Shown here in pieces: positions 10,281 to 40,048 of a stretch of DNA of 47,750 nt. The first letter of the stretch is position 1, and each line of letters opens with the position of its first letter. This DNA is from Acidobacteriota bacterium (GTDB lineage Bacteria; Acidobacteriota; Aminicenantia; Aminicenantales; Aminicenantaceae), in NCBI GenBank assembly GCA_030669585.1, contig DAOVDI010000008.1, forward strand, positions 1 to 47,750, written 5' to 3'. A program made the position numbers and the translations under genes. The notes under the pieces were generated by a model. The model had not been told where the DNA came from. It saw only the letters and a list, made by a program, of their open reading frames with translations, and ran no database searches.

Positions 10281-10527
10281 CCTGGACTATTTACGAGTCG
10301 AGGCGAGGCCCGAGGCCAAGGAAAAACAGTCTATAGAAGTCCTTAGAAATCCATAGGAGTCTATCGGAGTCTATTGAAGTCGTTGAAGTCAAGAAGAGTT
10401 TGTTGAGTTTATTGGGTTCGTTGTGTTCTTTGGGTTATCTTAAGTCAACAAATTCAATTAGCTCAAAGCGCTTGAATCCTTGAACCCTTTTTTTCAACGT
10501 ATCGCAAATTTTTATGAATAATCCAGG
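10281..10527. repeat. element with CCTGGAYTATTYA inverted ends, copy 1
   Basis: The left end CCTGGACTATTTA (10281-10293) and the right end TGAATAATCCAGG (10515-10527) are inverted copies, matching at 11 of 13 positions and bounding 247 bp. The interior contains the decamer array. The left 100 bp resemble the segment before copy 3. Confidence 0.5.
10328..10397. repeat. 10-bp-period direct-repeat array, copy 1
   Basis: About seven degenerate units of AGTCTATAGA/AGTCTATCGG type occur with a period of 10 bp; the last two units are shortened. The preceding GGCCAAGGAAAAACAGTC is shared with copy 2 at 19987. Confidence 0.75.
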
Positions 10528-17669: not shown

Positions 17670-17903
17670 CCTGGATTATTCACAAGTTGATATGCGAGGC
17701 ACAGCGTATGAAGCTGTATTCATATAATGCGAATGTGCTGTAACAAAGCAGATCGGCTTGCCCGGAGGGGAAAATACGAGGGCTTAGATTGGATGTTTGA
17801 CAAGTGGAAATGCTTGAATCAGAGTCTTTATAAAAATCAATCTTCAAAGCTGCAATCATTGGAATTGTACTTGTAGGCCGTCGAATTTTATGAATAGTCC
17901 AGG
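17670..17903. repeat. element with CCTGGAYTATTYA inverted ends, copy 2
   Basis: The left end CCTGGATTATTCA (17670-17682) and the right end TGAATAGTCCAGG (17891-17903) match inversely at 12 of 13 bases over a 234-bp span. The interior shares GTATT-ATATA-TGCGAA and AGATCGGCTTG with copy 3. It carries no open reading frame of note. Confidence 0.55.
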
Positions 17904-19940: not shown

Positions 19941-19968
19941 CTGGATTCCCGTTTCCACGGGAATGACG
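19941..19968. repeat. dRS3-like hairpin repeat, reverse orientation
   Basis: ATTCCC (19945-19950), 8 bp and GGGAAT (19959-19964), flanked by CTGG and GACG. The N8 is GTTTCCAC, so the stem is CCCGT/ACGGG. Confidence 0.8.
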
Positions 19969-19986
19969 GAGAGGCCAAGGAAAAAC

Positions 19987-20046
19987 AGTCTATAGAAGTC
20001 CATAGGAGTCCATTGAAGTCGTAGAAGTCTATTGAAGTCGAAGAAG
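19987..20046. repeat. 10-bp-period direct-repeat array, copy 2
   Basis: About six units of AGTCTATAGA/AGTCCATAGG type; two units are shortened by deletion. It is followed by a GGCCAAGGG purine-rich stretch, as in copy 4. Confidence 0.75.
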
Positions 20047-20070
20047 GCCAAGGGTTCAAGGCCTGCCTAT

Positions 20071-20098
20071 GCCTGTCTGCGTGCGGTCACGCACAGGC
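20071..20098. repeat. GC-rich imperfect hairpin
   Basis: Stem GCCTG plus TGCGTG, loop CGGT, then CACGCA plus CAGGC, with a two-base bulge on the left arm. No T-run follows, so it is not a standard terminator. Confidence 0.55.
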
Positions 20099-20220
20099 AG
20101 GCGTTGCATGAAGACAGGGGTCAAGGATTCGAGTGAAAAGAAAAGAGGCGAAAGGCCAAAGGCCAATGCAAAAGAGGCCCAAAGCCCAAAGCAGCTTAGC
20201 CCAAAGTCATTTAATTTCTG

Positions 20221-20275
20221 TCATTCCCGCGCAGGCGGGAATCCAGACGTCGTTCCTGCGAAAGCGGGAATCCAG
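20221..20275. repeat. two dRS3-like hairpins in tandem
   Basis: First unit: ATTCCC (20223-20228), GCGCAGGC, GGGAAT (20237-20242). The second unit (about 20250-20275) is degenerate on its left arm (GTTCCTGCG) and intact on the right (GCGGGAATCCAG). Confidence 0.75.
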
Positions 20276-20463
20276 CCAAGCAAGACAAACGATTTTTTCC
20301 TACTGCGAATGCGCCGCAACAAAGCAGATCGGCTTGCCCGAAGGGTGAAAAATGTCGATAATAAAAATAGGATTCAAGGATTCGAGGATTCTAGTGTTTT
20401 TCTTTCTAACAATTTAATAATGGATTGTCATAGTGTTTTTATTGTGTCCCGTTGAATTGAGTG

Positions 20464-20587
20464 CCTGGACTATTTACGAGTCGAGATTGATGCATCTGCA
20501 AGAGGTTGTTCGTGAAGCCGTATTTATATACTGCGAACGGACGGCATCACAGCAGATGGGATAAGATCGGCTTGTAAATTGTTCAGG
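20464..20587. repeat. element with inverted ends overlapping the miaB stop, copy 3
   Basis: The left end CCTGGACTATTTACGAGTC and the right end GCTTGTAAATTGTTCAGG (20570-20587) are imperfect inverted copies bounding 124 bp. The right end runs into miaB, and the TGA stop (20583-20585) lies inside its CCTGAAC. Confidence 0.55.
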
Positions 20588-33026: not shown

Positions 33027-33030
33027 GAAA

Positions 33031-33090
33031 AGAAGTCTATAGGAGTCGATAGAAGTCCATCGAAGTCTATCGAAGTCTGTCGAAGTCGAA
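33031..33090. repeat. 10-bp-period direct-repeat array, copy 3
   Basis: Six uninterrupted 10-bp units: AGAAGTCTAT, AGGAGTCGAT, AGAAGTCCAT, CGAAGTCTAT, CGAAGTCTGT and CGAAGTCGAA. It begins 4 bp after the ltaE stop. Confidence 0.85.
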
Positions 33091-33171
33091 AAAAGCCAAA
33101 GGTGAAAGGTGAAAGGCAGAAAAGAGAGAGCCCAAGGCCCAAAGCAACTTAGCCCAAAGTCATTTAATTTA

Positions 33172-33199
33172 CGTCATTCCCGTGGAAACGGGAATCCAG
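33172..33199. repeat. dRS3-like hairpin repeat, forward orientation
   Basis: ATTCCC (33176-33181), GTGGAAAC, GGGAAT (33190-33195), with flanks GTC and CCAG. Confidence 0.8.
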
Positions 33200-33261
33200 A
33201 CGAACAAGACAAACGAGAGTAACGAGATAACGAGACAAACGAGATAACGGGCCAGACGAGT

Positions 33262-38144: not shown

Positions 38145-38159
38145 GTCTGAATTATTTAT

Positions 38160-38315
38160 AAAAAAGGTGAAAGGTGAAAGTAAGAAGGCTAAAAGTTAAA
38201 AGCAACTTAGCCCAAAGTCATTTAATTTACGTCATTCCCGTTCCCCGATCGGAGTCGGGGACAGGGTTCACGGGAATCCAGATAAACGGGATGAACGAGA
38301 GTAGCGAGGAACCCT
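38160..38315. repeat. composite intergenic repeat, copy C (no decamer array)
   Basis: A GGTGAAAGG spacer, leader CAACTTAGCCCAAAGTCATT, extended dRS3-like hairpin (38231-38281) and tail GATGAACGAGAGTAGCGAGG. The lpdA promoter begins directly after it. Confidence 0.75.
38231..38281. repeat. extended dRS3-like hairpin with 32-bp insert
   Basis: ATTCCC (38234-38239) and GGGAAT (38272-38277) enclose 32 bp instead of 8. The insert holds CCCCGA, TCGGAG, TCGGGG, itself a hairpin. Confidence 0.8.
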
Positions 38316-39785: not shown

Positions 39786-39803
39786 GCAGAGGCCAAAGAT
39801 AGA

Positions 39804-39852
39804 AGAGTCTATCGAAGTCCATAGAAGTCTATTGAAGTCGTCGAAGTCGAAG
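39804..39852. repeat. 10-bp-period direct-repeat array, copy 4
   Basis: About five units of the GAAGTCCATA/GAAGTCTATT type, the fourth shortened. It begins 18 bp after the lpdA stop. Confidence 0.75.
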
Positions 39853-39927
39853 AAGGCCAAGGGCCAAAGGCCAATGCAAAAGAGACCCAAAGCCCAAAGC
39901 AGCTTAGTCTAATGTCATTTAATTTAC

Positions 39928-39954
39928 GTCATTCCCGCGCAGGCGGGAATCCAG
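39928..39954. repeat. dRS3-like hairpin repeat, forward orientation
   Basis: ATTCCC (39931-39936), GCGCAGGC, GGGAAT (39945-39950); identical in its core to the unit at 20223. Confidence 0.8.
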
Positions 39955-39984
39955 GAATACAACGAACTCAAAGAACTCAATAAA

Positions 39985-40036
39985 CTGGATTCCCACTCCC
40001 CGATCGGAGTCGGGGACAAGCTTCGTGGGAATGACG
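39985..40036. repeat. extended dRS3-like hairpin, outer arms reversed
   Basis: CTGG-ATTCCC (39989-39994) and GGGAAT-GACG (40027-40032) enclose 32 bp with the same CCCCGATCGGAGTCGGGG core as the copy at 38231. The outer arms are in the opposite orientation. The stem here is CCCAC/GTGGG. Confidence 0.8.
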
Positions 40037-40048
40037 AGACAAACGATC

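Follow-up and report, generated by a model that had tools for sequence, protein, structure and literature searches.

Repeat composites in the window

The intergenic region at 33033-33261 of the window, a 47,750-nucleotide stretch of DNA from an Acidobacteriota bacterium, consists of a series of short modules read on the forward strand. It starts with a decamer array, (GAAGTCYATN)n, with 10-nt units and 9-nt variants (33033-33088), the outermost module of the cargo described below. This array is followed by a purine-rich spacer of the GGTGAAA / GGCCAAA type (33096-33147), an exact copy of the leader CTTAGCCCAAAGTCATTTAATTT (33148-33170), a CGTC-1 type REP hairpin with the layout CGTC-ATTCCCGT-GGAA-ACGGGAAT-CCAG (33172-33199 or, one base shorter, 33173-33199) and a ACGAGATAA/ACAAACGA array (33200-33261, with the tail at 33205-33217), which runs up to the stop codon of a convergent gene.

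An earlier note on this DNA had described the same series in the gaps 19941-20297, 33027-33261 and 39786-40048 and, lacking the array, in 38160-38315. The named pieces were located where claimed and the modules were recovered in all four gaps, but the tail was different in 38160-38315 and 39786-40048, and the true limits extended past the gap coordinates, with a conserved element core at 20293-20345 and a degenerate outer end at 38146.

The second composite (19941-20292, forward strand; h-array-G-P-leader-H-H-tail) contains the reported modules but begins with a reversed hairpin (19941-19967) and has two forward hairpins (20220-20246 and 20249-20275). Its array lies at about 19991-20046, the purine spacer at about 20150-20194, the leader at 20195-20217 and the tail at about 20280-20292. 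At 20293-20360 (forward strand), the cargo is joined to a structured core by the junction TTTTTTCC / TACTGCGAATGCGCCGCAACAAAGCAGATCGG..., which comprises the 3' side of arm 1 and the start of arm 2. The third composite (38146-38315, forward strand) starts with a degenerate terminal inverted repeat (TIR; TCTGAATTATTTATAAA). As reported, it lacks the array and retains leader (38206-38228) and REP hairpin (38230-38281 or, one base shorter, 38231-38281; forward strand), but the loop of this hairpin contains a second hairpin (CCCCGATCGGAGTCGGGGA). The fourth composite (39786-40048, forward strand) comprises array, spacer, leader (39903-39925, three mismatches), an H-h pair of REPs (hairpin 39928-39954, reversed hairpin 39985-40035) and tail, with no recognisable TIR left. 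A TIR-bounded composite with array is located at 10281-10527 (forward strand). Its alpha end is joined directly to the array head CCAAGGAAAAACAGTC (10281-10331) and its beta end lies at 10511-10527; it shows no target duplication (TSD).

Copy number and module order in the genome

The genome searched comprised 2.48 Mb in 191 contigs and was 88% complete. At up to three mismatches, the leader was found 55 times (22 exact copies; none with the reversed pattern), while the hairpin motif GTCATTCCC..GGGAATCCAG was found 176 times and decamer pairs 208 times, each with no match in the control. The repetition of the composite is thus beyond chance. Loci were taken by place around leader, hairpin or array matches, and 109 composites were parsed; because of this choice, the frequencies given for them are not those of a blind genome scan.

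The modules follow a single palindromic order. The array comes first, then the G/purine spacer, then either the leader or a reversed tail array, then the hairpin and the T array, after which the series is repeated in mirror image. Order and orientation fitted in 849 of 881 module pairs (96.4%), as opposed to 50% in the shuffled null with no shuffle above 58%, a figure that is descriptive only since the order tested came from the same data. The array lay outside the leader and was directed toward it in 57/57 array-leader pairs of the genome sample. Random order or independence of the modules had been named in advance as the observation that would speak against a composite; the order was non-random, but modules were found without the leader. 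On contigs C1-C90, for which the match lists are complete, the 75 composites carried array, leader and hairpin (22), array and hairpin (22), hairpin only (17), leader and hairpin (7), array only (6) or array and leader (1), so the modules are non-obligatory partners despite their fixed order. The genes flanking composites were in tandem (33), convergent (21) or divergent (19) arrangement, with no visible effect on composite content. A terminator or 3'-UTR role for the whole composite was rejected because a gene orientation bias was absent.

The suggestion that the leader serves as recognition sequence for the hairpin found no support. A hairpin directly followed the leader in 48 of 57 leader cases, but only about 48 of 172 parsed hairpins directly followed a leader, and 55 leaders stood against 176 hairpins. 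When related genomes were searched, the hairpin was detected in 11/60 and the leader in 0/60, save for one weak match with three mismatches. The leader was also rejected as a widespread motif, since the single exact 20-mer match in GTDB genomes (Paraferrimonas) is about what chance predicts for 257 Gb; IMG/VR contained no match.

The hairpin

The hairpin is a CGTC-1 REP of the dRS3 class. CGTC-1 REPs are defined by a CGTC tag, an 8-bp stem, a 4-nt loop and a CCA tail (Di Nocera et al. 2013, PMC3733652), and the hairpins studied here share with them, including Neisseria dRS3, the tag, an 8-bp stem starting with AT, the 4-nt loop and the CCA tail. The simple 28-nt form accounted for 107 of 136 distinct hairpins, with all 8 stem pairs in 91 of the 107. 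Nested forms made up 24/136, comprising 21 copies of 51-52 nt whose loop contains a second hairpin and 3 of 75-76 nt that contain a third. The loops of the 28-nt REPs were GGAA, GAAA, GTAA or GCAA and thus GNRA-like in 96/107 cases, a loop type that would be compatible with a function as RNA.

Among 76 close hairpin pairs, 51 were head-to-head (+-), 25 head-to-tail (18 ++, 7 --) and none tail-to-tail (-+); the head-to-head pairs had conserved short spacers. Published CGTC-1 dimers are likewise predominantly head-to-head with conserved spacers and rarely tail-to-tail, and CGTC REPs are reported to have neither a dedicated transposase nor a linkage to RAYTs (PMC3733652); none was found here among Y1_Tnp and IS1380-type genes either. 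In contrast to the reported dimers, in which the head-to-tail arrangement is negligible, it is found here in 25/76 pairs; in addition, many of the REPs lie in a cassette within an element with TIRs and TSDs, and 24/136 carry a loop hairpin. Some CGTC-1 dimers of H. neapolitanus lie within longer palindromes (PMC3733652). In the relative G002, where the leader is absent, the REPs are paired head-to-head across spacers that are very uniformly 22 nt long, and the second hairpin in their loop is a different one (GCCTGCGGAGGCAGG).

Terminal inverted repeats and target duplications

The composite had been put forward as the window's best candidate for an undescribed element; its hairpin has already been described (CGTC-1 REP / dRS3), and the earlier note had missed the TIRs at the outside, the duplicated target sites and the structured core that holds the cargo. 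Inspection of whole gaps revealed inverted ends (alpha, CCTGGATTATTCACGGGTCGA; beta, CCTGAATTATTCATAAAAATTGYCGATA) lying beyond the composites, and many composites are enclosed by the TIRs CCTGGATTATTCAC... and CCTGAATTATTCATAAAAAT... The TIRs are 11-17 bp long, with the ends CCTGGATTATTCAC... and CCTGAATTATTCATAAA... A weight matrix for the ends gave 189 matches in own-genome loci and 5 in reversed sequence.

Identical 4-bp flanks were present in 20 of 108 convergent TIR pairs from three genomes (3.67 expected, p=0.0005). In the same pairs, none matched at 5-6 bp and 0-2 matched at shifted offsets. Sixteen of the 20 matching flanks were not self-complementary, and the inverted-match control gave 1. 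The duplications are mostly of the NTAN type, and a TSD is kept in only about a fifth of the candidate TIR pairs. They surround base elements as well as composites: a 332-bp element (L016 1420-1751) extends from the array through a hairpin pair to the tail and is flanked by ATAG, and further elements with composite modules are flanked by CTAA (L007 1440-1869), TTAG (L090 993-1273 and L072 28-273) or ATAA (L177 and L182). Decamer arrays lie within the TSD-flanked elements of L016, L090, L177 and L182. The proposal that the whole composite is a unit, or that its modules are recruited to each other, is thereby partly supported, in that the order is fixed genome-wide and whole composites lie within single elements with TIRs and TSDs; they are therefore able to travel as part of one unit.

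Among 54 leader composites, recognisable TIRs bounded 13 completely and 20 at one end only, and 21 had none within 250 bp; the last group includes 33027-33261 and 39786-40048, and some of its members are cut by contig ends. The TIR-bounded units, with 204 ends in the own genome, measure 40-430 bp and are too small for a transposase gene. TIRs, a TSD of fixed length and small size at high copy number are features that they share with MITEs.

Neighbouring elements are often 3-5 bp apart (L153 358/362, L004 300/304, L006 180/184, L029 1425/1429), a spacing that would fit insertion of new copies at the target duplications of older ones. A separate 124-bp palindromic element with the TIRs CCTGGACTATTTACGAG / CCTGAACAATTTACAAG lies at 20464-20587 (forward strand). 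Elements of this subfamily (ends CCTGAACAATTTACAAG / CCTGGACTATTTACGAG), near-identical between copies, are also present in L184, L185, L004 and L069.

Base element, folded core and distribution

A cargo-free base element of 234 bp (TIRs CCTGGATTATTCAC / CCTGGACTATTCATAAAA) is located at 17670-17903 on the forward strand, between a nusA-like gene and an H+-pyrophosphatase gene. It is flanked by CTAA on both sides, has a fold z of -4.25 and aligns with elements of two other genera. Base elements without cargo measure 184-264 bp. The common element of G003 is about 252 bp long, and array, leader and REP were absent from all of its fetched copies.

Forty-two cargo-free elements from three genera align and fold into a three-way junction, in which the TIRs form the outer stem and two arms branch from it. 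In the core alignment, 96.6% of cells were standard pairs, as opposed to 34-43% in slid controls, a percentage favoured by construction because the structure was predicted from the same alignment. Two-sided (compensatory) changes were found in 30 of 48 core pairs, whereas shuffles gave 18.4 and 0/500 of them reached that number; these counts are stronger evidence for the core fold than the percentage paired. The outer TIR stem was 96.3% paired, also with compensatory changes. The core had no credible match in Rfam.

A single pattern search detected TIR ends in each of the 37 genomes examined from the GTDB family (the own genome and 36 relatives), at 3-555 per genome with a reversed control near 0 and the highest count, 555, in G003. 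Outside the family but in the same order, only 1 of 23 genomes had at least 5. The genome G058, from another family of the order, contained 42 TIR ends, with its neighbours at 0-4; horizontal transfer or misplacement is possible. Contigs of G003 (L147, L151, L155, L157, L161, L168, L171) often stop about 120-130 bp past an alpha end, as expected if recent near-identical copies break the assembly. Plasmid, phage and viral collections contained no match. A literature search for sequence strings returned no paper, and the hairpin start appeared only in a gonococcal one.

Position of the cargo

In 39 copies the apex of arm 1 is uninterrupted and has the sequence ...GGCGTGG-CGCATGAAGCCGTATTCATA-TACTGCGAA... 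In composites, CCAAGGAAAAACAGTC and the array come after the left part of this arm in 26 copies that have an alpha end, with the left part shortened in many of them, and tail-ATTTTTTCC precedes the right part in 13 copies. From these two junctions, alpha end to array head and tail to core, it follows that the cassette has a single, fixed position at the apex of arm 1, where it takes the place of the apical hairpin. The junction site is identical across several core subtypes. Both junctions are present in the window (10281-10331 and 20293-20345), the latter starting where the first composite of the earlier note ends. The cassette ends, GGAAAAA and TTTTTTCC, are mutually complementary. The cassette could have reached this apex through a single replacement that recombination then spread, or through insertion on repeated occasions.

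Search for the mobilising enzyme

Y1_Tnp (RAYT, PF01797) had no match in the 88%-complete own genome and was present in 46/60 relatives. REP and Y1 counts were uncorrelated (rho -0.07, 37 genomes). TIR counts were weakly linked to Y1 (rho 0.32, p 0.054, 37 genomes), with 204, 158 and 234 ends in Y1-less genomes. RAYT/REPIN was rejected as the driver because no Y1_Tnp was found in the own genome and the REP count shows no correlation with Y1.

IS1380 was rejected as a partner, since the sole IS1380-type gene of the genome is a remnant without matching ends, and the loci fetched from relatives likewise lack them. The remnant gene (G000:C88 4924-5707; L102, L103) is broken: it has lost an internal segment, carries a premature stop and has no CCTGGATTATTCA ends. 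Element ends were absent from the IS1380 and Y1 transposase loci fetched from relatives, and among the loci of these two families no autonomous partner with the same ends was found, the own genome being incomplete.

Discussion

The element combines known kinds, namely a MITE, a minisatellite MITE and a CGTC REP; its unusual traits are a cassette fixed in position at the apex of a hairpin and nesting at several levels. IS1380-type and IS5-type transposons have ends starting with CC and 4-bp target duplications that are AT-rich or YTAR-like. Such ends and 4-bp duplications are shared by the element, which makes these transposons a candidate source of the enzyme, as a lead only; unlike such transposons, no transposase gene with CCTGGATTATTCA ends was found in the searches described above. 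In neisserial intergenic mosaic elements (NIME), 20-bp dRS3 repeats flank RS repeats. A dRS3-like core and the alternation of dRS3-type with other repeats in intergenic mosaics are common to both, but here the order is strict and the modules lie within elements that are bounded by TIRs and flanked by target duplications. Porphyromonas gingivalis has a MITE, BrickBuilt, that carries a minisatellite with a 23-nt unit and is present in 19 copies in one strain (PMC4596501). BrickBuilt shares the inverted ends, the minisatellite between leader and tail units, the intergenic location and, as its defining trait, a tandem repeat inside a TIR-bounded element; by contrast, the unit here is 10 nt rather than 23 nt, there are about 200 ends in a single genome, the cargo contains a REP and the base element is family-wide.

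The composite is very probably the cargo of a family-wide MITE-like (non-autonomous, inverted-repeat) mobile element. A DDE-type transposase supplied in trans would have produced the copies by transposition, as suggested by TIRs combined with a TSD of fixed length. In this genome arm 1 carries a cassette that starts with CCAAGGAAAAACAGTC, continues with the decamer array, the purine spacer, the leader, one CGTC-1 REP or often a head-to-head pair of them, and the tail array, and ends with GATTTTTTCC; the fixed module order would be inherited from the transposed unit. The palindromes may grow by repeated insertion into older apices, with the cassette entering arm 1, REP pairs entering the cassette and second and third hairpins entering REP loops, and arms may be shuffled among copies via recombination. 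Most of the gaps discussed here would belong to the decayed or truncated members, as would other degenerate copies that lack TIRs. Counting against this explanation are the failure to find a transposase with these ends, the low share of TIR pairs that keep a TSD and the leader composites that have no recognisable TIR; nor is a covarying internal core obviously needed in a MITE moved purely by a DDE enzyme. A rather unlikely variant is that hairpin loops or apices receive palindromic DNA time and again through a mobilising activity, with the covarying three-way-junction core recognised as folded single-stranded DNA or RNA; if so, the element would belong to a class of structured mobile elements apart from ordinary DDE MITEs.

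The predominance of head-to-head hairpins (51/76 close pairs, none tail-to-tail) with spacers that are short and conserved, and REP pairs that occur without the other modules, also in G002, would be expected if the hairpins were mobile through a REP-associated tyrosine transposase, with the other modules passively co-duplicated. This REPIN-like process is improbable, given that Y1_Tnp is missing from the genome and REP counts do not follow Y1 counts, and that the outer elements carry 4-bp TSDs, a product that Y1 transposases are not known to leave. Moreover, the tag is CGTC and not GTAG, and CGTC REPs were reported without RAYT linkage (PMC3733652).

Selection for functional RNA near gene ends, as terminator or mRNA-stability hairpins that are not mobile DNA, would account for the strong core covariation across genera and the GNRA-like tetraloops, but it has a similarly low probability in view of the 4-bp TSDs, the range of 3 to 555 ends within one family, the lack of an Rfam family match and the absence of a bias to convergent gaps or to one orientation relative to genes. 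Least probable of all is a NIME-like mosaic of simple repeats inserted independently in intergenic space, with no unit. Partial module combinations, breakpoints at several different positions near the leader and common nested hairpins would fit such a mosaic; the agreement in order far above the null, the same two cargo junctions and the TSDs around whole composites argue against it.

With the composite read as cargo of a MITE-like element, a route of spread becomes testable for CGTC-tagged REPs, which have no known mobilising enzyme (PMC3733652): many of them ride here within elements that have clear target duplications. The range in the number of ends per genome provides natural replicates for tracing the enzyme. 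As a MITE family found in every searched genome of the family keeps a covarying fold, this structure seems important for spread or as RNA.
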